A DNA stretch of 64,000 nucleotides from Hyphomicrobiales bacterium. GTDB taxonomy: Bacteria; Pseudomonadota; Alphaproteobacteria; Rhizobiales; Rhizobiaceae. Shown in pieces: positions 11,063 to 57,049 of this stretch. Numbering within the stretch: position 1 is the first letter of the stretch; the number at the start of each line of letters is the position of its first letter. Location: positions 124,001 to 188,000 of the forward strand of contig UCMT01000024.1 in NCBI GenBank assembly GCA_900473795.1. Reading direction: 5' to 3'. A program made the translations under genes and the position numbers. The notes beneath the pieces were generated by a model, which saw nothing but the letters and a program-made list of their open reading frames with translations, ran no database searches and had not been told where the DNA came from.

Positions 11063-11367
11063 CGTTCTTCGCCTCTTTCATCGGCCTTGATCGGAATCCC
11101 GGCTTCAGGAGGGCATGTCCCCGCCTTCGGATACTCCGGCACCGAACTCGGACAAGGCTGCAACGACGCGAAGACAGGACTGTTGCAGCTTTGACCATCT
11201 CAGCACGTACTTTCGGCAAACGTAGTAAATAAGCCGTTAACCAGGCTGAAAATTTTTTAACGATTTCGGCGCATGCTGACCCCGGGAGGCTTCCGCACGG
11301 GCGATTTCACACATGCCGATTCCGGCCATCGCCAGGTTCGATTGGCAAAGTTGTCGCCTCCATCAAT
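11063..11367. promoter_or_regulatory. podJ upstream region with CtrA-like half-sites
   Basis: Divergent intergenic region between podJ and the acyl-CoA dehydrogenase. Two TTAAC half-sites, TTAACCAGG at 11237-11245 and TTAACGATT at 11257-11265, resemble the CtrA recognition half-site (TTAACCAT). A GANTC site (GAATC, 11094-11098) is nearer the podJ start. CtrA and GcrA control podJ in Caulobacter and in Sinorhizobium, so cell-cycle control here is a reasonable inference. No gene is evident in the stretch. Confidence 0.45.
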
Positions 11368-11391
11368 TTTGACGTTTACGCAAACGTCAAA
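11368..11391. promoter_or_regulatory. Perfect 24-bp dyad operator before acyl-CoA dehydrogenase gene
   Basis: TTTGACGTTT and AAACGTCAAA mirror perfectly around the four bases ACGC. The dyad is 87 bp before the start codon. Near-identical sites occur at 48658-48681 and 55136-55159, also before lipid-related genes. The core resembles the MerR-family LiuR-type motif described for acyl-CoA and branched-chain amino-acid catabolic genes in proteobacteria; that assignment is from memory of the motif, not from a search. Confidence 0.65.
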
Positions 11392-11477
11392 GTTTTGTAG
11401 CATGCTGAAAATGACATGGTGCGCGCGCCCAGGAGAGGCTTGCCCCGCGACACGGTTACAGGTGAGGAACACGAGAC

Positions 11478-13274
11478 ATGCCCAGCTATAAGGCCCCGGT
11501 AGAAGACACGCTTTTCATTCTCAACGACGTCCTCGGCATCGAGCGCTACAACAACCTGCCCGGCTTTGCCGATGCGACGCCGGACATGATCGAGGCGATT
11601 GTCGGCGAAGCCGCAAAACTCGCCGAGCAAGTGCTGTTTCCCGTCAACCTCTCCGGCGACCAGGAAGGCTGCACGCGCAACGATGATGCGACAGTGACGA
11701 CGCCCAAGGGCTTCAAGCAGGCTTTCGACCTCTACCGCGAGGGCGGCTGGCTTGGCCTTGCCGTACCGGAGGAATTCGGCGGCCAGGGCCTTCCCTACAC
11801 GCTGCACACCGCTGTGGGCGAATATATGTCCTCGGCCAACATGGCGCTGACCATGTATCCAGGCCTGACGCAGGGCGCGATCGCTGCGATCCTCGTTCAC
11901 GGCTCCGACGCGCAGAAGGAGACCTATCTGCCGAAGATGGTGACGGGCGAGTGGACCGGCACGATGAACCTCACCGAACCCCATTGCGGCACCGACCTCG
12001 GCCTGCTGCGCACCAAGGCCGTGCCTCAGGGCGACGGTTCCTACAAGATTTCCGGCCAGAAGATCTTCATCTCCGCCGGCGAACACGACATGGCGGACAA
12101 CATCATCCACCTGGTGCTCGCCCGCATCGAAGGCGCACCGGAAGGCGTGAAGGGCATTTCGCTGTTCATCGTGCCGAAGTTCCACGTCGAGGCTGACGGT
12201 TCCGTCGGCGGCCGCAACACGGTCTCCTGCGGTGCGATCGAGCACAAGATGGGCATTCACGGCAATTCGACCTGCGTCATGAACTATGACGAGGCGACGG
12301 GCTATCTCATCGGCGCGGAGAACAAGGGCCTGAACGCCATGTTCGTGATGATGAACGAGGCCCGCCTCGGTGTCGGCATGCAGGGCCTGTCGATCGCCGA
12401 AGTCGCCTACCAGAATGCCGCCGACTATGCCCGCGACCGCATCCAGGGCCGCGCGCTGTCCGGTGCCAAGGCTCCGGACAAGAAGGCCGATCCGATCATC
12501 GTCCATCCCGACATCCGCCGCGTCCTGATGACCATCAAGGCCTTCAACGAGGCTGGCCGTGCCTTCACGCTCTGGACGGCGCTGAAATCCGACATCGCCC
12601 ATCGCGGCGACAATGAAAAGGATCGCCAGACCGCCGACGACATCCTCGGCCTGATGACGCCGATCCTCAAGGGCGTCTTGACCGACAAGGGCTTCGACCA
12701 TGCCGTCATGGCCCAGCAGGTCTTCGGCGGCCATGGCTATATCGAAGAACACGGCATGAGCCAGTATGTCCGTGATGCCCGCATCGCCATGATCTACGAA
12801 GGCGCCAACGGCATCCAGGCGCTCGATCTCGTCGGCCGCAAGCTGGCGCTGAACGGCGGCCGGGCGATCACCGCACTGTTCAAGGAAATCGGCGACTTCT
12901 GCGAGGAAAACCGTTCCGACGAGAAGCTCGTTACCTACACCAAGGGCCTGAAGAAGGGCTTGAACGACCTGCAGGCGGCGACCATGTGGTTCATGGGCAA
13001 TGCCATGGCCAAGCCCGACAATGCCGGCGCCGGCTCGACCGACTACATGCACCTCTTCGGCCTCGTCGTTCTCGGCTACATGTGGGCGAAGATCGCCAAG
13101 ACCGTCGAGGAGAAACTCGCCGCCGGCGACACGGCCCGCGAAACCTACCTGAAGAACAAGCTCGTCACGGCCAAGTTCTTCATGGAGCGCATCATGCCGG
13201 AAACCGCCCTGCGCAAGGCCCGCATCGAAGCCGGCGCCGATACGGTGATGGCGCTGGATGCAGCGGCGTTCTGA
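11478..13274 (+). CDS. Acyl-CoA dehydrogenase with C-terminal extension (FadE-type)
   Basis: A 598-residue flavoenzyme for the first step of fatty-acid beta-oxidation (acyl-CoA to trans-2-enoyl-CoA). The N-terminal DUF3834-like start [19 protein letters not shown] and the long C-terminal domain mark it as the ~600-residue ACAD subfamily. The ACAD core is clear: [58 protein letters not shown] and the catalytic-glutamate segment [18 protein letters not shown] near residue 440. GTGAGGAAC precedes the ATG. The thiolase and FadJ-type genes follow on the same strand after the toxin-antitoxin insert. The palindrome at 11368-11391 is its likely operator. Confidence 0.93.
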
Positions 13275-13387: not shown

Positions 13388-13399
13388 ATGGAGACGAAA

Positions 13400-13657
13400 A
13401 TGGCGGTATCGACATTACGCAACGTCGGCGGCTCGGTGATGATGGCCATCCCGAAACCGTTGCTCGAAACGCTCGGCCTTTCAGCAAACGCCAAGCTCGA
13501 TGTGACCGTCGAGGACGGCAAGCTGGTGGCCGTGCCGAAGGCCCGTCCAAAGTACACGCTGGAAGAATTGCTCGCTCAATGCGATCCGGATGCACCGTTG
13601 ACGCCTGAAGACCGCGAGTGGATGGATACCCCGCCGGTCGGCCGGGAAATCATCTGA
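13400..13657 (+). CDS. MazE/ChpS-type AbrB-fold antitoxin
   Basis: An 85-residue antitoxin. The N-terminus MAVSTLRNVGGSVMMAIPKP is the swapped-hairpin AbrB DNA-binding fold; the middle LDVTVEDGKLVAVPKARPKY and acidic tail LLAQCDPDAPLTPEDREWM follow the MazE/ChpS plan. I chose the ATG at 13400 because GGAG lies six bases before it; an ATG four codons upstream (13388) abuts the operator and has no ribosome-binding site. The stop overlaps the toxin start by one base (TGATG). Confidence 0.9.
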   Translation: MAVSTLRNVGGSVMMAIPKPLLETLGLSANAKLDVTVEDGKLVAVPKARPKYTLEELLAQCDPDAPLTPEDREWMDTPPVGREII

Positions 13658-13986
13658 TGGAGCGTGGCGAGATCTGGCATGTCGATCTGGAGCCAACGAA
13701 GGGACGTGAGCAAGCCAAGGCACGCTATGTGCTCGTGCTGACGCCGCGGGCCTTCAACCAGCTTGGCACGCCGGTCGTTGCGCCAATCACCAGCGGTAGC
13801 GAATTCGTGCGGATGCAGGGGTTTGCGGTGTCGCTGTCGGGCGCCGGCACCCAGGCCAACGGCGTCGTTCTTTGCAATCAGGTTCGCGCCATCGACCTGA
13901 AGGCGCGAAATGCGAAATTTTCGGAAACCGTGCCCGATTTCATCACGGATGAGGTTCTGGCCCGGGTTTCGGCATTGTTCGAATAG
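13657..13986 (+). CDS. MazF/ChpB/PemK-type endoribonuclease toxin
   Basis: A 109-residue toxin predicted to cut mRNA. It begins MERGEIWHVDLEPTKGREQ, the standard PemK/MazF opening with the RG...W and P..G..Q positions; RYVLVLTPRAFN, PVVAPITSG and VVLCNQVRAIDLKAR complete the fold. Length and order match ChpB/PemK. It is coupled to the antitoxin through TGATG. The pair sits between two beta-oxidation genes, 51 bp before the thiolase start, so read-through between modules is possible. Confidence 0.92.
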   Translation: MERGEIWHVDLEPTKGREQAKARYVLVLTPRAFNQLGTPVVAPITSGSEFVRMQGFAVSLSGAGTQANGVVLCNQVRAIDLKARNAKFSETVPDFITDEVLARVSALFE

Positions 13987-14037: not shown

Positions 14038-15246
14038 ATGACCGAAGTCTTCGTTTACGACCACGTGCGCACGCCGCGCGGACGGGGCAAGAAGGATGGG
14101 GCACTGCACGAGGTGCCGACGCCTCGGCTGGCGGCCAAGGTGCTGCAGGCGATCCGCGATCGCAACGGGCTCGACACCTCCACCGTCGACGACATCATCA
14201 TGGGCTGCGTCGATCCGGTGTTCGAAGCCGGCGCCGTGATCCCCAAGGCTGCCGCCTTCGAGGCCGGCTATTCCAACAAGGCCCCCGGCATGCAGATCTC
14301 GCGCTTCTGTGCCTCGGGGCTCGACGCCATCAATTTCGCGGCCGGCAAGATCGCTCAAGGGGCCGACGACATCGTCATTGCCGGTGGCGTGGAAAGCATG
14401 TCGCGCGTCGGCATGGGCATGTCCGGCGGTGCCTGGTACATGGACCCCTCCGTCAACTTCCCCGGGCATTTCATCCCGCAGGGCGTCTCGGCCGACCTGA
14501 TCGCCACCAAATACGGCTTCTCCCGCGATGACGTCGACGCCTATGCCGTCGAGAGCCAGAAGCGTGCCGGCCATTCCTGGGACAACGGCTATTTCGACAA
14601 GTCGGTCATCCCGGTGAAGGACCAGAACGGCATCACCATCCTCGCCAGGGACGAGCACATGCGTCCGACGACGACGATGCAGAACCTCGCGAGCCTCAAC
14701 CCGTCCTTCCAGATGCCCGCCGAGATGGGCGGCTTCGAGGCCGTCGCCATCCAGGCGCATCCGGAAATCGAGAAGATCACTTACGTCCACCACGCCGGCA
14801 ATTCGTCCGGCATCGTCGACGGCTCGGCGGCTGTCCTCATCGGCTCCAAGGCCGGCGGCGAATCCATGGGTCTCAAACCGCGTGCCCGCATCAAGGCCTT
14901 TGCCAATATCGGCTCCGATCCGGCGCTGATGCTGACCGGCCCGGTCGACGTCACCGAAAAGCTGTTGAAGCGCTCCGGCATGTCGCTGTCCGACATCGAC
15001 CTGTTCGAGCTCAACGAGGCCTTCGCCGCCGTCGTCTTGCGCTACATGCAGGCCTTCGACATTCCGCATGACAAGATCAACGTCAATGGCGGCGCCATCG
15101 CGCTCGGCCATCCGCTCGGCGCCACCGGCGCGATGATCTTCGGCACCGTGCTCGACGAACTGGAGCGCCGCGGTCTGCAGACTGCGCTCGTCACGCTCTG
15201 CATCGGCGCCGGCATGGGCACCGCGACGATCATCGAACGGGTCTAG
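14038..15246 (+). CDS. Acetyl-CoA C-acyltransferase (thiolase, FadA-type)
   Basis: A 402-residue thiolase for the last step of beta-oxidation. The acylated cysteine is in [18 protein letters not shown] (Cys near 91); the active-site histidine is in [14 protein letters not shown] (near 358) and the second cysteine in [13 protein letters not shown] (near 388). The start [20 protein letters not shown] is typical of the FadA-like group paired with FadJ-type enzymes. GGGAGATGAAATC precedes the ATG. A small membrane-protein gene and the FadJ-type gene follow within about 260 bp. Confidence 0.93.
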
Positions 15247-15257
15247 GAACAAAAGAC

Positions 15258-15473
15258 ATGCCGAGGCGCGAGGTCTACGAGGAGCTGAACCACGAAATCG
15301 AGGAGGAGTTCGCCCATCATAACCTGGAGAGGGACATGAAGGCGGACTACGAGGCTTCCACCCGGATCGGGACGGACGAACATGTCCGCCGTTTGCGCGC
15401 GCAAAACCGCGTTCTGTTGGTGGTCCTCATTCTCGTTGTCGGCGGGTTTTGCTTGGCGCTTGGCATCTTTTGA
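15258..15473 (+). CDS. Small single-span membrane protein in beta-oxidation operon
   Basis: A 71-residue protein of unknown function. The first two thirds are very charged ([17 protein letters not shown]...), then RRLRAQNR leads into a hydrophobic span, [20 protein letters not shown], that runs to the C-terminus: a tail-anchored plan with a cytoplasmic N-terminus. AGGAAC lies eight bases upstream. It starts 11 bp after the thiolase stop and ends 34 bp before the FadJ-type start, so it is in the operon. I do not recognise a family. Confidence 0.7.
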
Positions 15474-15507
15474 CTATGAACGAATTTCAGGGAAGAGGAA
15501 TCCCATC

Positions 15508-17724
15508 ATGAGCAGCTACACCAATTTCACCATCGAGACCGACGCCGACGGCATTGCGCTGGTCACCTGGAACATGCCCGACAAGTCGATGAACGTGTTC
15601 ACGGCCGAGGTCATGAAGGAGCTCGACGCCATCGTCGATCAGACCGTTGCCGACGAAGCCGTCAAGGGCGTCGTCTTCACCTCCGGCAAGTCCACCTTCT
15701 CCGGCGGTGCCGACCTGTCGATGATCAAGGGCATGTTCACCTTCCAGCAGGAACAGAAGAAACTCGATCCGGACAACGCAGCGCAAAAACTGTTCGACCT
15801 GACCGGCCAGATGACCGGCCTGTTCCGCAAGCTGGAAACGTCAGGCAAGCCCTGGGTCTCGGCCATCAACGGCACCTGCATGGGCGGCGCCTTTGAGCTG
15901 TCGCTCGCCTGCCACGGCCGCGTCGCCGCCAATTCGAAATCGGTCAAGATCGCCCTGCCCGAGGTCAAGGTCGGCATCTTCCCCGGCGCCGGCGGCACGC
16001 AGCGCGTTCCGCGCCTCACCAACGCGCAGGACGCGTTGCAGATGATGACCACCGGCTCCTCGCTCACGCCGCAGCGCGCCAAGGCCATGGGCCTGATCCA
16101 CGAGATCGCCGAGCCGGCCGGACTGATCAACGCGGCGAAGGCGATGATCAAGAACGGCCTGAAGCCCGTCCAGCCCTGGGACGAGAAGGGCTACAAGGTT
16201 CCCGGCGGCGGCATCTGGACGCCGGCCGCAGCCCAGCTCTGGCCGGCCGCCTCGGCGATCCTGCGCCGCGAAACCGCCGGCAACTATCCGGGCGGCCTTG
16301 CGATCCTCAAATGCGTCTATGAGGGCCTGCAGGTTCCCTTCGATACCGGCCTGAAGATCGAGCAGCGCTATTTCACCGAGATCCTGCAGACCACCGAAGC
16401 CTTCTCGATGATCCGCTCGCTGTTCATCTCGATGCAGGAGCTCGGCAAGGGCGCCCGCCGCCCGGCCGGCATTGCGAAATCCGAGCTGAAGCAGATCGGC
16501 GTCGTCGGCGCCGGCTTCATGGGCGCCTCGATCGCCTATGTCGCCGCCGCCGCCGGCATCGAGGTCACCCTGATCGACCGCGACATGGAAGCGGCAACTA
16601 AGGGCAAGGCCCATTCGGAAGGCCTGGTCAAGGATTCCATCGGTAAGGGACGACTGACGCAGGACGAGGCAACCGCGCTTCTCGCCCGCATCACCCCGTC
16701 GGCCGACTACAACGACCTGAAGGACGTCAAGCTCGTCGTCGAGGCGGTGTTCGAGGATCGCCAGGTGAAGAAGGACGTGATCGAGAAGGTCGAGGCAGTG
16801 CTTGCCGAAGATGCCATCTTCGCTTCCAACACCTCCACCCTGCCGATCACCGGCCTGGCCAGGAACTCGAAGCGCCCGGCCCAGTTCATCGGCATCCACT
16901 TCTTCTCGCCGGTCGAGAAGATGATGCTGACGGAAGTGATCCTCGGCAAGGAAACCGGCGACAAGGCGCTGGCCACAGCACTCGATTTCGTCGCCGCGAT
17001 CAAGAAGACGCCGATCGTCGTCAACGACACGCGCGGCTTCTATGTCAACCGCTGCGTCTTCCGCTATATCCACGAAGCCTATGACATGCTGATCGAAGGC
17101 GTGCCGGCGGCGATGATCGAGAACGTCGCCAAGATGGCCGGCATGCCGGTCGGCCCGCTGTCGCTCAACGACGAGGTGGCGATCGACCTTTCCCAGAAGA
17201 TCCTCAAGGCCACCGTCGCCGACCTCGGCGAAAAAGCCGTCGATCCGCAGCACATGACGCTGATCAACAAGCTGGTCGACGACCTCGACCGCCGCGGCCG
17301 CAAGAACGGCAAAGGCTTCTACGACTATCCGCCGAAACCCGCCAAGAAGTCGCTCTGGCCTGGCCTCAAGGACCTCTACCCGCAGAAGCCGGCCGACAGC
17401 TTCGACGTCGAGACGATCAAGCAGCGCTTCCTCGTCACCATCGCCCTCGAAGCCGCCCGCACCATGGAAGAGGGCATCGTCACCGACCCGCGCGAAGCCG
17501 ACGTCGGCTCCATCTTAGGCTTCGGCTTCGCCCCCTACACCGGCGGCACGCTGAGCTACATCGACGGCATGGGCGTCAAGGCCTTCGTGGCTTTGTGCGA
17601 GAAGCTGGCGGCGTCTTATGGGGAGCATTTCCAGCCGACGCCGCTGCTCAAGGACATGGCGGCCAAGGGCGAGACCTTTTACGGGCGGTTTGATCCGTAT
17701 GGAGCGGCGGCCAAGGCTGCGTGA
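15508..17724 (+). CDS. Multifunctional enoyl-CoA hydratase/3-hydroxyacyl-CoA dehydrogenase (FadJ-type)
   Basis: A 738-residue fusion catalysing the two middle steps of beta-oxidation. Residues 1 to about 190 are a crotonase domain (oxyanion-hole segments SGGADLSMIKGM and NGTCMGGAFELSLACHGR). The NAD-binding Rossmann motif GVVGAGFMGASIAY starts near 331, followed by two 3HCDH C-terminal domains (IGIHFFSPVEKMMLTEVI, NGKGFYDYP). The true start is the ATG at 15508 with GAGGAATCCC upstream; the frame is open further 5' into the preceding small gene but that part is not conserved. A strong terminator follows. Confidence 0.95.
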   Translation: MSSYTNFTIETDADGIALVTWNMPDKSMNVFTAEVMKELDAIVDQTVADEAVKGVVFTSGKSTFSGGADLSMIKGMFTFQQEQKKLDPDNAAQKLFDLTGQMTGLFRKLETSGKPWVSAINGTCMGGAFELSLACHGRVAANSKSVKIALPEVKVGIFPGAGGTQRVPRLTNAQDALQMMTTGSSLTPQRAKAMGLIHEIAEPAGLINAAKAMIKNGLKPVQPWDEKGYKVPGGGIWTPAAAQLWPAASAILRRETAGNYPGGLAILKCVYEGLQVPFDTGLKIEQRYFTEILQTTEAFSMIRSLFISMQELGKGARRPAGIAKSELKQIGVVGAGFMGASIAYVAAAAGIEVTLIDRDMEAATKGKAHSEGLVKDSIGKGRLTQDEATALLARITPSADYNDLKDVKLVVEAVFEDRQVKKDVIEKVEAVLAEDAIFASNTSTLPITGLARNSKRPAQFIGIHFFSPVEKMMLTEVILGKETGDKALATALDFVAAIKKTPIVVNDTRGFYVNRCVFRYIHEAYDMLIEGVPAAMIENVAKMAGMPVGPLSLNDEVAIDLSQKILKATVADLGEKAVDPQHMTLINKLVDDLDRRGRKNGKGFYDYPPKPAKKSLWPGLKDLYPQKPADSFDVETIKQRFLVTIALEAARTMEEGIVTDPREADVGSILGFGFAPYTGGTLSYIDGMGVKAFVALCEKLAASYGEHFQPTPLLKDMAAKGETFYGRFDPYGAAAKAA

Positions 17725-48657: not shown

Positions 48658-48681
48658 TCTTACGTTTACGAAAACGTCAAA
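48658..48681. promoter_or_regulatory. Second copy of the ACGTTTACG dyad operator
   Basis: The right arm AAACGTCAAA is identical to that at 11382-11391; the left arm TCTTACGTTT differs at two of ten places; the centre is ACGA. It ends 24 bases before the TTG start of the nitronate monooxygenase-like gene, so a bound protein would overlap the promoter or initiation region. Confidence 0.6.
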
Positions 48682-48705
48682 AAACTGAACCCCGGGAGCG
48701 AACTC

Positions 48706-49665
48706 TTGTCATTGCCAGCCCTTCTCAACGGCACCACGCGGCTGCCCGTCGTCGCAGCGCCCCTGTTCATCATCTCGCATCCAGCCCTGACGATCGCCCA
48801 GTGCAAGGCGGGCGTCGTCGGCTCGTTTCCCGCGCTGAACGCCCGGCCGGAAGCGCAGCTGGATGAATGGCTGGCCGAGATCACGGAAGAACTTGCGGCG
48901 CACAACGCCCGCAATCCGGGCAGGCCGGCCGCCCCCTTCGCCGTCAACCAGATCGTCCACAAGTCCAACAAACGGCTCGAGCATGACCTGATGCTGTGCG
49001 TCAAATACAAGGTCCCGATCGTCATTTCCTCGCTCGGCGCGGTGCCGGAAGTGAATGCGGCAATCCATTCCCATGGCGGCATCGTGCTGCATGATGTGAT
49101 CAACAATCGCCACGCCAATTCCGCCATCCGCAAGGGCGCTGACGGCCTGATCGCGGTCGCCGCCGGCGCCGGCGGCCATGCCGGAACGCTCTCGCCCTTC
49201 GCCCTCGTCCAGGAAATCCGCACCTGGTTCGACGGGCCGCTTCTGCTCTCGGGCGCCATTTCCACCGGCGGTGCCGTGCTTGCCGCACAGGCGATGGGCG
49301 CCGACATGGCCTATGTCGGCTCGGCGTTCATCGCCACCACGGAGGCGCGCGCCAGCGACGCCTACAAGCAGATGATCGTCGACAGCAGCGCCAATGACAT
49401 CGTCTATTCCAACTTTTTCACCGGCATTCACGGCAACTACCTGAAAGCCTCGATCGTCGCGGCCGGCATGGATCCAGAGCAACTGCCGCAGGCCGATCCG
49501 TCGAAGATGGATTTCGAAACCGCCACAACCGGCGCCAAGGCCTGGAAGGATATCTGGGGCTGCGGCCAGGGCATCGGCGCCGTCACGGAGATCGGACCGG
49601 TTTCCGCCTTGGTCGATCGCCTTGCCCGCGAATATGACGAAGCGCGCCAGAGACTGGCGCTATAA
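48706..49665 (+). CDS. Nitronate monooxygenase/2-nitropropane dioxygenase-family flavoprotein
   Basis: A 319-residue FMN TIM-barrel protein. PVVAAPLFIISHPALTIAQCKAGVVGSFP, KGADGLIAVAAGAGGHAGTLSPFAL, LLLSGAISTGGAVLAAQAMGADMAYVGSAFIATTEA are the family blocks; the GAGGHAG motif carries the catalytic-type histidine of class I enzymes. Members oxidise nitronates, and some sit with fatty-acid catabolism genes where the substrate is not clear. TTG start with GGGAG nine bases upstream. The operator upstream links it to the acyl-CoA dehydrogenase and fadD. Confidence 0.88.
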   Translation: MSLPALLNGTTRLPVVAAPLFIISHPALTIAQCKAGVVGSFPALNARPEAQLDEWLAEITEELAAHNARNPGRPAAPFAVNQIVHKSNKRLEHDLMLCVKYKVPIVISSLGAVPEVNAAIHSHGGIVLHDVINNRHANSAIRKGADGLIAVAAGAGGHAGTLSPFALVQEIRTWFDGPLLLSGAISTGGAVLAAQAMGADMAYVGSAFIATTEARASDAYKQMIVDSSANDIVYSNFFTGIHGNYLKASIVAAGMDPEQLPQADPSKMDFETATTGAKAWKDIWGCGQGIGAVTEIGPVSALVDRLAREYDEARQRLAL

Positions 49666-55135: not shown

Positions 55136-55163
55136 ATTGACGTTTACGTTAAGGTTATATAAT
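55136..55163 (+). promoter_or_regulatory. fadD promoter with third copy of the ACGTTTACG operator
   Basis: TTGACG (55137-55142) and TATAAT (55158-55163), 15 bases apart, form a recognisable sigma-70 promoter about 185 bp before fadD. The operator's left arm ATTGACGTTT covers the -35; the right arm TAAGGTTATA matches only 6 of 10 places of the perfect site, and reaches into the -10. So binding would compete with RNA polymerase. Confidence 0.6.
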
Positions 55164-55348: not shown

Positions 55349-57049
55349 ATGCCGGACACATTGATTCAGACGCCCGGACCCCAGGCCGCCAAGCCCTGGC
55401 TGCAATCCTATCCGCCGGGCATGCCCGCGGAAATCTCGCCGTCGCCCTACAACTCCATCGGCGAGCTCTTTGCGGAAGCCTGCGTGACATACGCCACGCG
55501 CCCTGCCTTCACCTGCATGGGCAAGACGCTGACCTTCGCCGAACTCGACGCCGAGAGCAAAAAGATCGGCGCCTGGCTGCAATCGACCGGCCTTGCCAAG
55601 GGCGACCGCGTTGCCGTGATGATGCCGAACATCCTGCAGAATCCGGTGATCGTCTACGGCATCCTGCGCGCAGGCTTTGCCGTCGTGAACGTCAATCCGC
55701 TCTATACGCCGCGCGAACTCGAGCATCAGTTGAAGGATGCCGGCGCCAAGGCGATCTTCGTGCTGGAAAACTTCGCCCATACCGTCGAGCAGGTGGCGGC
55801 GCGCACCGACCTCAAGCACATGGTCGTCGCGACCATGGGCGACCTTCTGGGTCTCAAGGGCCTGATCGTCAACATCGTCGTGCGCAAGGTCAAGAAGCTG
55901 GTACCCGCCTGGTCGCTGCCCGGCCACCTGTCCTTCAAGGCGGTTTTGGCAAAGGGAAACAGTGCGCCCCTGAACAAGCTCGACGTGAAACCGGGCGATG
56001 TCGCCTTCCTGCAATATACCGGCGGCACCACCGGCGTCTCCAAGGGCGCGACGCTCACCCATGCCAATCTTCTTGCGAACATGGCCCAGATGGGCCTGTG
56101 GCTCGAGACCGCCTTCCTGAACAAGAAGCGGCCGGATCACCTGGTGTTCCTCTGCGCCCTGCCGCTCTACCATATCTTTGCGCTCACCGTGAATTCACTG
56201 ATGGGCCTGAAGACGGGCGGGCAGAATATCCTCATCCCCAATCCGCGCGACATCCCGGCCTTCGTCAAGGAGCTGGCGAAGTACAAGGTCAACATCTTCC
56301 CGGGCCTGAATACGCTGTTCAACGCACTGATGAACAATTCCGAATTCCAGAAGCTCGACTTTTCCGATCTGGCGCTGACCTTCGGCGGCGGCATGGCGGT
56401 GCAGCGACCGGTTGCCGAACGCTGGGAAACGATGACGGGATGCCCGATCAAGGAAGGCTACGGCCTTTCGGAGACATCGCCCGTCGCGACGGCCAACCGG
56501 CTGGACGCAGCCGAGTTCACCGGCACGATCGGCCTTCCCCTGCCCTCGACGGAGGTTGAAATCCGCGACGAGGATGGCAACACGCTGGCGCTCGGCGATA
56601 TCGGCGAAATCTGCATCCGCGGCCCGCAGGTCATGGCCGGCTACTGGCAGCGGCCGGACGAAACCGCCAAGGCAATCTCGCCCGACGGCTTCTTCCGCAC
56701 CGGCGATATCGGCTTCATGAACGCGCAAGGCCTGGTCAAGATCGTCGACCGCAAGAAGGACATGATCCTCGTCTCCGGCTTCAACGTCTTCCCCAACGAG
56801 ATCGAGGAAGTGGCGATGACCCTTGCCGGCATTCTCGAATGCGCCGCCATCGGTGTGCCCGATCAACATTCCGGCGAGGCGGTGAAGCTGTTCGTCGTCA
56901 AGAAGGACCAAAATCTCACCGAGGCGGACGTCAAGGCCCATTGCTCGGCCAACCTCACCAACTACAAGCGGCCGAAATTCGTCGAGTTCCGCACCGAACT
57001 GCCGAAGTCGAATGTCGGCAAGATCCTGCGCAAGGATTTGCGCGGCTAG
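55349..57049 (+). CDS. fadD: Long-chain fatty acid-CoA ligase
   Basis: A 566-residue AMP-binding enzyme activating fatty acids to acyl-CoA. The ATP/AMP signature is YTGGTTGVSKGATLTH, the acyl-binding loop KEGYGLSETSP, and the C-terminal hinge FFRTGDIGFMNAQGLVKIVDRKKDMI with the late lysine in LPKSNVGKILRKDLR. ATG at 55349 with GGGAGAG upstream; the open frame to 55169 is the leader. It begins after an operator shared with the beta-oxidation acyl-CoA dehydrogenase. Confidence 0.95.
   Translation: MPDTLIQTPGPQAAKPWLQSYPPGMPAEISPSPYNSIGELFAEACVTYATRPAFTCMGKTLTFAELDAESKKIGAWLQSTGLAKGDRVAVMMPNILQNPVIVYGILRAGFAVVNVNPLYTPRELEHQLKDAGAKAIFVLENFAHTVEQVAARTDLKHMVVATMGDLLGLKGLIVNIVVRKVKKLVPAWSLPGHLSFKAVLAKGNSAPLNKLDVKPGDVAFLQYTGGTTGVSKGATLTHANLLANMAQMGLWLETAFLNKKRPDHLVFLCALPLYHIFALTVNSLMGLKTGGQNILIPNPRDIPAFVKELAKYKVNIFPGLNTLFNALMNNSEFQKLDFSDLALTFGGGMAVQRPVAERWETMTGCPIKEGYGLSETSPVATANRLDAAEFTGTIGLPLPSTEVEIRDEDGNTLALGDIGEICIRGPQVMAGYWQRPDETAKAISPDGFFRTGDIGFMNAQGLVKIVDRKKDMILVSGFNVFPNEIEEVAMTLAGILECAAIGVPDQHSGEAVKLFVVKKDQNLTEADVKAHCSANLTNYKRPKFVEFRTELPKSNVGKILRKDLRG

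Follow-up and report, generated by a model that had tools for sequence, protein, structure and literature searches.

LiuR orthologues reportedly control fatty-acid degradation in alphaproteobacteria, according to an account attributed to Kazakov et al. 2009. The regulon described here resembles that one in the regulator class, the pathway and the bacterial class, with sites located before β-oxidation genes. It is of a largely known type and, therefore, the sites themselves are not novel. LiuR is described as a MerR-family repressor (PMC3223726) and, for 103 genomes from 15 groups, is assigned to branched-chain amino acid utilisation (PMC5343134). In the alphaproteobacterium Rhodospirillum rubrum, an ILV box is reported before the liuR and ivd genes (PMC7238569), so LiuR appears to keep its amino-acid role in this species.

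The window analysed here, a stretch of 64,000 nucleotides from a member of the Rhizobiaceae, contains a 24-bp dyad at three places, before genes for an acyl-CoA dehydrogenase (ACDH1), a nitronate monooxygenase-like (NMO-like) enzyme and the long-chain acyl-CoA synthetase FadD (Table 1). A sequence-only reading had given the letters of the three dyads, their common core ACGTTTACG and the rightward orientation of the three genes, all of which proved correct. The likeliest start of fadD (an ATG at 55349; start not fixed) places dyad 3 about 190 bp upstream. The evidence presented below makes it highly probable that these dyads are the operators of one fatty-acid-oxidation regulon, most likely repressed by a 128-aa LiuR-like MerR protein.

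Table 1. Predicted operators and associated genes in the window (positions counted from its first letter).
Feature	Position	Strand	Description
Dyad 1	11368-11391	.	TTTGACGTTT-ACGC-AAACGTCAAA, perfect 10/10; predicted operator of the acyl-CoA dehydrogenase gene
Dyad 2	48658-48681	.	TCTTACGTTT-ACGA-AAACGTCAAA, arms 8/10 and 10/10; predicted operator directly before the NMO-like gene
Dyad 3	55136-55159	.	ATTGACGTTT-ACGT-TAAGGTTATA, arms 9/10 and 6/10, right arm degenerate; predicted fadD operator
Acyl-CoA dehydrogenase 1 (ACDH1)	11478..13274	+	598 aa; Acyl-CoA_dh_N/M/1 and Acyl-CoA_dh_C
Thiolase	14038..15246	+	Same order in congener G046
FadB/FadJ-type enoyl-CoA hydratase / 3-hydroxyacyl-CoA dehydrogenase	15508..17724	+	Frame scanned as 15382-17724
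NMO-like / FabK-like FMN enzyme	48706..49665	+	TTG start and SD GGGAG (48694-48698), both by eye
fadD, long-chain acyl-CoA synthetase	55349..57049	+	Start picked by eye

The thiolase probably belongs to the same β-oxidation cluster and putative operon as ACDH1, and the FadB/FadJ-type gene is a further presumed member of this operon. Between ACDH1 and the thiolase gene, at 13388-13986, lie a MazE/PemI-like frame (recognized by eye) and a gene of the PemK/MazF toxin family (PF02452). In the congener G046, only about 200 bp separate ACDH1 from the thiolase gene, which suggests that the pair is an insertion in the fatty-acid operon.

The three dyads stand out clearly from the rest of the window. 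Allowing up to three mismatches, the 22-base pattern TTGACGTTTACGNNAACGTCAA was found five times (both strands counted), always at the three dyads, and in none of 100 dinucleotide shuffles of the window. A matrix built from 63 sites before orthologues of other genera (30 ACDH1, 13 fadD and 20 NMO; none from the window) scored dyads 1, 2 and 3 at 43.3, 36.7 and 31.3 bits, and no other place in the window exceeded 6.9 bits. The best matrix scores in 20 Markov-1 windows, one strand each, ranged from -4.8 to 9.6.

The 6.39-Mb genome was scanned with the pattern TGACGTTTACGNNAACGTCA, using the reversed pattern as a control. With two mismatches or fewer, seven places were detected and none with the control. 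Three of them are the window sites before ACDH1, the NMO-like gene and fadD. The site at C43:231661 is located 80 bp before the ATG of a second acyl-CoA dehydrogenase (ACDH2), followed by an enoyl-CoA-hydratase-like stretch. The site at C53:188 precedes the gene encoding ETF-ubiquinone oxidoreductase (ETF-QO), cut by the contig end and recognized by eye with the help of its N-terminus and of the congeneric genomes, with a DnaK-like gene on the opposite side. The site at C83:7332 precedes a MerR-family regulator gene. Finally, the site at C43:98695 lies before a DUF2780 gene (Pfam match just below the cut-off), with a HerA-like gene about 250 bp (249-263) away on the other side; this gap was assigned to the DUF2780 gene, on the other strand, from this genome only. 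The palindrome right before the DUF2780 gene, TTGACGTTGACGTCAACGTAAA (L030:8696-8715, G000:C43:98695), has a centre different from that of the main dyad and is perhaps the site of another factor or that of a further regulon member.

When three mismatches were allowed, 15 places were detected (22 strand matches). The reversed control gave 7 strand matches, which makes chance the probable origin of most 3-mismatch places. One of these eight, on contig C11, is located 145 bp before etfB. Another lies about 35 bp before a gene for a FAD_binding_2 dehydrogenase (L034:7557-7576, G000:C57:76556), a spacing that resembles that of the NMO-like gene. The other six are taken as mostly chance. At the stricter limit, the matches of the whole genome stand before the seven genes named above and not at random places, and no similar density of random or intragenic matches was observed.

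In 13 congeneric genomes, counting the window's own, the pattern with two mismatches or fewer gave 133 strand matches at 88 places, compared with 8 strand matches for the reversed control, and 86 of these places lie at the same genes. A site precedes ACDH1, NMO, fadD, MerR and ACDH2 in all 13 genomes each, ETF-QO in 11, and etfB in five (one of them, L336, read by eye at a contig end); the DUF2780/HerA-like gap carries it in five. At least five sites are kept in every genome.

A wider sample comprised 40 genomes, each from another genus of the family. ACDH1 was matched in 30 of them, and in all 30 the dyad is present with two mismatches or fewer. Allowing three mismatches, the dyad precedes fadD in 13 of the 30 loci fetched (37 genomes matched) and NMO in 20 of the 30 loci fetched (of 34 matches). 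Four of the ten NMO loci lacking it are paralogous copies, leaving 20 of 26 orthologues with the dyad. Loss of the dyad in relatives that keep the genes had been named as evidence against a common regulator; it is absent for ACDH1 (0/30) and seldom seen for NMO (6 of 80 named loci, 6 of 26 orthologues), but for fadD it is frequent (17/30), and there the expected retention did not hold.

For the NMO-like gene, eighty named orthologous loci from Rhizobium, Sinorhizobium/Ensifer, Agrobacterium, Phyllobacterium, Brucella/Ochrobactrum, Aureimonas and others were analysed, and 74 are preceded by the dyad (three mismatches or fewer), which begins 32-64 bases upstream of the match. In control stretches taken from within the NMO gene the count was 0/80, with 5 mismatches at best. 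Remnants can be recognized in four of the six dyad-less loci (L120 and L136, with 5 mismatches each; L073 and L079, with a short TTACGTAAAGGTAA). No dyad was found at the NMO paralogues (three that are 52-54% identical and a second copy in G018, 71%), where the best places have 7-8 mismatches, nor at any of 29 NMO loci fetched from outside the family, with up to 5 mismatches allowed (47 other genomes matched, one of the same order). Synteny was considered as the cause of the NMO link and rejected: within 4 kb on each side of the 80 named loci, FadD is near only 7, and the other target proteins gave no match at 1e-20. The proposal of a single regulon for fatty-acid activation, fatty-acid oxidation and the NMO-like gene is thus supported by the additional β-oxidation and ETF sites, by the 13 congeners and by 74 of the 80 named NMO orthologues.

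Two readings would deprive the dyads of any operator function. The chance recurrence of an AT-rich palindrome could account for the two congeneric places without a target gene and for the strand matches of the reversed controls (8 in the 13 genomes, 7 in the window's own genome at the looser limit), but for the three window sites it is refuted by the shuffles, the gap in matrix scores (31 against 7 bits) and the conservation in congeners, family and named NMO loci, which leaves it a negligible probability. The dyads could also act as RNA hairpins, either terminators or leader structures, and dyad 1 does fold at -12.6 kcal/mol (z -3.42). However, shuffled sequences fold as well as dyads 2 and 3 do (z 0.10 and 0.63), no terminator was found in the region of dyad 1 that was scanned (11200-11500), and the letters are conserved beyond mere pairing. 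On the folding scores of dyads 2 and 3 and the terminator scan this reading was rejected as extremely improbable.

The core of the dyad had been compared with the LiuR (MerR-family) motif, with the remark that no such regulator gene lies in the window. Both points agree with the genome: its 12 MerR_1 matches are all on other contigs, and the dyad occurs in the promoter of a LiuR-like MerR gene located elsewhere in the genome, whose homologues in the phylum lie behind a related box. The protein (128 aa, G000:C83:7482-7868) starts about 130 bp after the dyad and contains a MerR-type DNA-binding domain (PF13411, 58.9 bits versus a cut-off of 21.6; G000:C83:7494-7691). None of the NCBIfam equivalogs for metal- or redox-sensing proteins was above its cut-off. 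The upstream neighbour of the gene is mgtE, which is not a target gene; no branched-chain (liu/ivd) gene was found among its identified neighbours, and the five fatty-acid proteins of the window plus ACDH2 gave no match in the 17-kb stretch at C83.

Homologues of this MerR protein were matched in 39 genomes of the phylum outside the family, and 22 loci were fetched. Fourteen are near a frame for a small acyl-CoA dehydrogenase (24-28% identical to ACDH1; length 387-389 aa in eight frames), four near an ACDH1 orthologue (58-68%) and one near genes for an acyl-CoA dehydrogenase and a FadD-like protein; one more is beside HMG-CoA lyase, and two are near none of these. Upstream of the MerR gene, 19 of the 22 loci carry a TTTACGTNNACGTAAA-like box (two mismatches or fewer, no control), a type of box which we take to be the LiuR/ILV box. 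The small acyl-CoA dehydrogenase is presumably isovaleryl-CoA dehydrogenase, an assignment made partly from the composition of liu operons; NCBIfam equivalogs gave no name to the four that were scanned. One of these enzymes is 74% identical to a protein of the window's genome that precedes a carboxyltransferase gene. This isovaleryl-CoA-dehydrogenase-like and carboxyltransferase (ivd-mcc) locus (C46:73051, L377, 4146 bases) has no box, its best match being intragenic with 5 mismatches.

The system shares with the LiuR regulon a MerR-type protein, 40-46% identical to the homologues beside small acyl-CoA dehydrogenases in other classes, together with a related box (core ACGTTTACG/ACGTAAACGT, variant arms) and an autoregulatory site. 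Unlike the LiuR branched-chain regulon, the sites here precede fatty-acid and ETF genes and the genome's own ivd-mcc locus lacks one; the arms are TTGACGTTT here and TTTACGTTA in the LiuR type. In a tree that did not include the second paralogue described below, the MerR proteins of the family form one starred clade, and the tree does not settle its position among the LiuR-like rows. Because the LiuR neighbourhood and the leucine targets were not found and the tree does not settle orthology, the name LiuR-like is used only as a label for a protein that looks related to LiuR and would work like it. The case offers an example of regulator rewiring, in which a LiuR-like factor has fatty-acid and electron-transfer genes under its predicted box and a leucine-type locus without a site.

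Within the family, the MerR protein was matched in 38 of the 40 other genomes at E<=0.001 (including a 42%-identical best match in G025); the two genomes without a match, G004 and G005, have 1.1 and 2.0 Mb. A TTGACTTTTACGTAAA-type element precedes the MerR gene in 29 of 30 family genomes under a lax limit of 6 mismatches, and the main pattern with three mismatches or fewer does so in 12 of 30, counts that, like the 30 of 30 for ACDH1, have no control. Seven family genomes harbour the MerR gene and lack ACDH1, six of them also lacking NMO at the thresholds used. With two mismatches or fewer, five of the seven have 0 sites and the others 3 and 1. The corresponding numbers are 0 in G004, 0 in G005 and 1 in G025; 0, 0, 0, 0 and 1 place in five genomes from other families of the order; and 5, 7, 3 and 3 in four genomes with ACDH1. 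The reversed control gave 2 strand matches in all over these 19 genomes. Since five of the seven genomes have no site, the MerR gene alone is no predictor of the exact dyad, and these mixed counts indicate that the dyad follows the set of targets more closely than it follows the MerR gene.

These counts bear on the identity of the binding protein. A different regulator, of the TetR family and similar to PsrA or FadP, could bind the dyad, the MerR gene being merely another target. In other proteobacteria, fatty-acid degradation is under the control of TetR-type regulators (PMC5343134), the MerR gene is tied to the sites by co-occurrence only, and the five site-less genomes mentioned above speak for this reading as well. 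This is nevertheless decidedly unlikely, as the site class is found before the MerR gene itself in all 13 congeners and 18 of 30 family genomes have a LiuR-like MerR gene close to ACDH1. Moreover, in four other alphaproteobacteria a MerR gene near an ACDH1 orthologue (58-68%) has the short box before it (two mismatches or fewer).

The MerR genes near ACDH1 in these 18 family genomes encode a second protein, paralogue B, 39-49% identical to the first (paralogue A) over the aligned part. They lie no more than 1.5 kb upstream of ACDH1, with gaps of 121-1129 bp and the dyad inside the gap; the window's genome has no B at this position. Paralogue B could therefore be the true family-wide regulator, and in the window's genome paralogue A would have taken over the sites or these would be relics. 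The position of B near ACDH1 speaks for this, as do the other MerR matches of the window's genome, which are 23-28% identical to A among the matches shown, none of them in the window. Against it, the dyad is still present before ACDH1 in the 12 genomes that have no B within 1.5 kb of this gene (a B gene may lie elsewhere in them), and the retention of at least five sites in each of 13 congeners makes the sites look in use. The takeover or relic scenario is rather unlikely, and paralogue A is retained as the candidate regulator of the window's genome. In several genomes with MerR-B, the box before the first MerR gene lacks the right arm (TTGACTTTTACGTAAATGCCG), and genomes without B near ACDH1 tend to have the full dyad, a split that is not clean.

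The mode of action can be approached from the promoters, which were aligned on the dyad (69 non-redundant of the 74 NMO promoters and 30 for ACDH1). In NMO promoters, two weakly conserved elements precede the dyad, a TT-rich -35-like one at a distance of about 30 bp and a TGCTAT-like -10 that immediately adjoins the dyad; a weakly conserved -10-like element is likewise found just upstream of dyad 2. The position of this element suggests that the dyad covers the NMO transcription start. In ACDH1 promoters, a conserved TTTGnTA follows the dyad within 3 bp, its TA being 17 bp from the TTTACG of the core, a spacing that would place the dyad over the -35; dyad 1 covers the putative -35 box. A simple sigma-70 consensus scan of 11200-11500 found no promoter. 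Classic MerR activators have their operator inside a 19-20-bp spacer. The ACDH1 and NMO arrangements do not have that geometry, and both layouts favour repression.

In the proposed mechanism, a dimer of the MerR protein would bind to TTGACGTTTACGNNAACGTCAA-like sites and cover the -35 box of the acyl-CoA dehydrogenase promoter, or the region just after the -10 of the NMO-like gene, causing repression. Acyl-CoA derived from incoming fatty acid would release the repressor; a long-chain acyl-CoA is our guess for the inducer. The regulator would probably repress its own gene as well. The regulon would comprise fadD for activation, the two acyl-CoA dehydrogenases (the second followed by enoyl-CoA hydratase), thiolase and FadJ downstream of the first dehydrogenase, and, for electron transfer, etfB and ETF-ubiquinone oxidoreductase. 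The NMO/FabK-like flavoenzyme and the regulator would complete it. A sequence curiosity is in this way developed into a defined regulon of one bacterial family, its operators listed and a candidate regulator named.

The presence of a nitronate monooxygenase-like enzyme in a fatty-acid regulon had been singled out as unusual. Its membership is supported by the sites; its oddness is reduced, since FabK is nearest by sequence, and FabK and nitronate monooxygenases appear together by fold. The protein belongs to Pfam PF03060 (nitronate monooxygenase), and its best PDB sequence matches, both from Thermotoga maritima, are 5gvj, named FabK (1.6e-21), and 3bo9, a putative nitroalkane dioxygenase (3.5e-21), followed by further FabK proteins, with the tested nitronate monooxygenases weaker. 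The fold search placed FabK first; nitroalkane oxidases, nitronate monooxygenases and other FabK proteins followed, interleaved at similar TM-scores, and then PfaD and FabX. The structure model (mean pLDDT 73.9, below 50 for residues 153-161 around the GGH histidine) predicts a PF03060 fold with the conserved GGH histidine, and the GGH motif aligns to that of FabK and is invariant in 30 aligned proteins. The protein differs from FabK in its low identity to the top fold matches (about 22%) and does not reach the cut-off of the FabK NCBIfam equivalog (71 versus 453.1 bits).

FabK is an FMN-dependent enoyl-ACP reductase II, an enoyl-thioester reductase of the PF03060 superfamily that also includes nitronate monooxygenases, and the Pfam name therefore makes the NMO-like enzyme look more out of place in a fatty-acid regulon than it is. 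The flavoenzyme probably belongs to the fatty-acid-oxidation job, and a role acting on enoyl-thioesters would fit the regulon. A tentative proposal, which we consider possible rather than probable, is that it represents a new FMN-dependent auxiliary β-oxidation enzyme in Rhizobiales, and that a LiuR-like repressor recruited it after its control had shifted from leucine to fatty acids. Its reaction might be, for example, that of a FabK/FabX-fold enoyl-CoA (or dienoyl-CoA) reductase or isomerase on unsaturated or modified acyl-CoA esters. A replacement of FadH by the NMO-like enzyme was also considered: none of five Oxidored_FMN frames of 680-770 aa has a site with up to 4 mismatches in its own locus, and none of the four scanned was above an NCBIfam cut-off.

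The conserved inclusion of a FabK/NMO-fold flavoenzyme may be new: in the titles, abstract beginnings and some passages covered by a literature search, no link of nitronate monooxygenase to LiuR or to a fatty-acid regulon was found. It offers fatty-acid oxidation as the physiological context for a widespread 'nitronate monooxygenase' flavoenzyme, whose function becomes directly testable.

Outside the family, a few NMO loci have an enoyl-CoA hydratase (L271, L272) or a gene of the TetR family (L272) in the vicinity, from five neighbour frames scanned at three loci, and these neighbours hint faintly at an acyl-CoA link of the enzyme. A different, GGACATATGTCC-like palindrome lies about 100 bp before the NMO-like gene in L266 and L270 (G085, G193). 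L272 and L274 have a TGGTAACA..TGTTTCCA-like palindrome, flanked on its other side by a TetR-like gene (Pfam match for L272 only). Outside the family, the enzyme may have come under different regulators. On the contig of L292 (G101:C22:20816-23627), three NMO/FabK-like paralogues are arranged in tandem.
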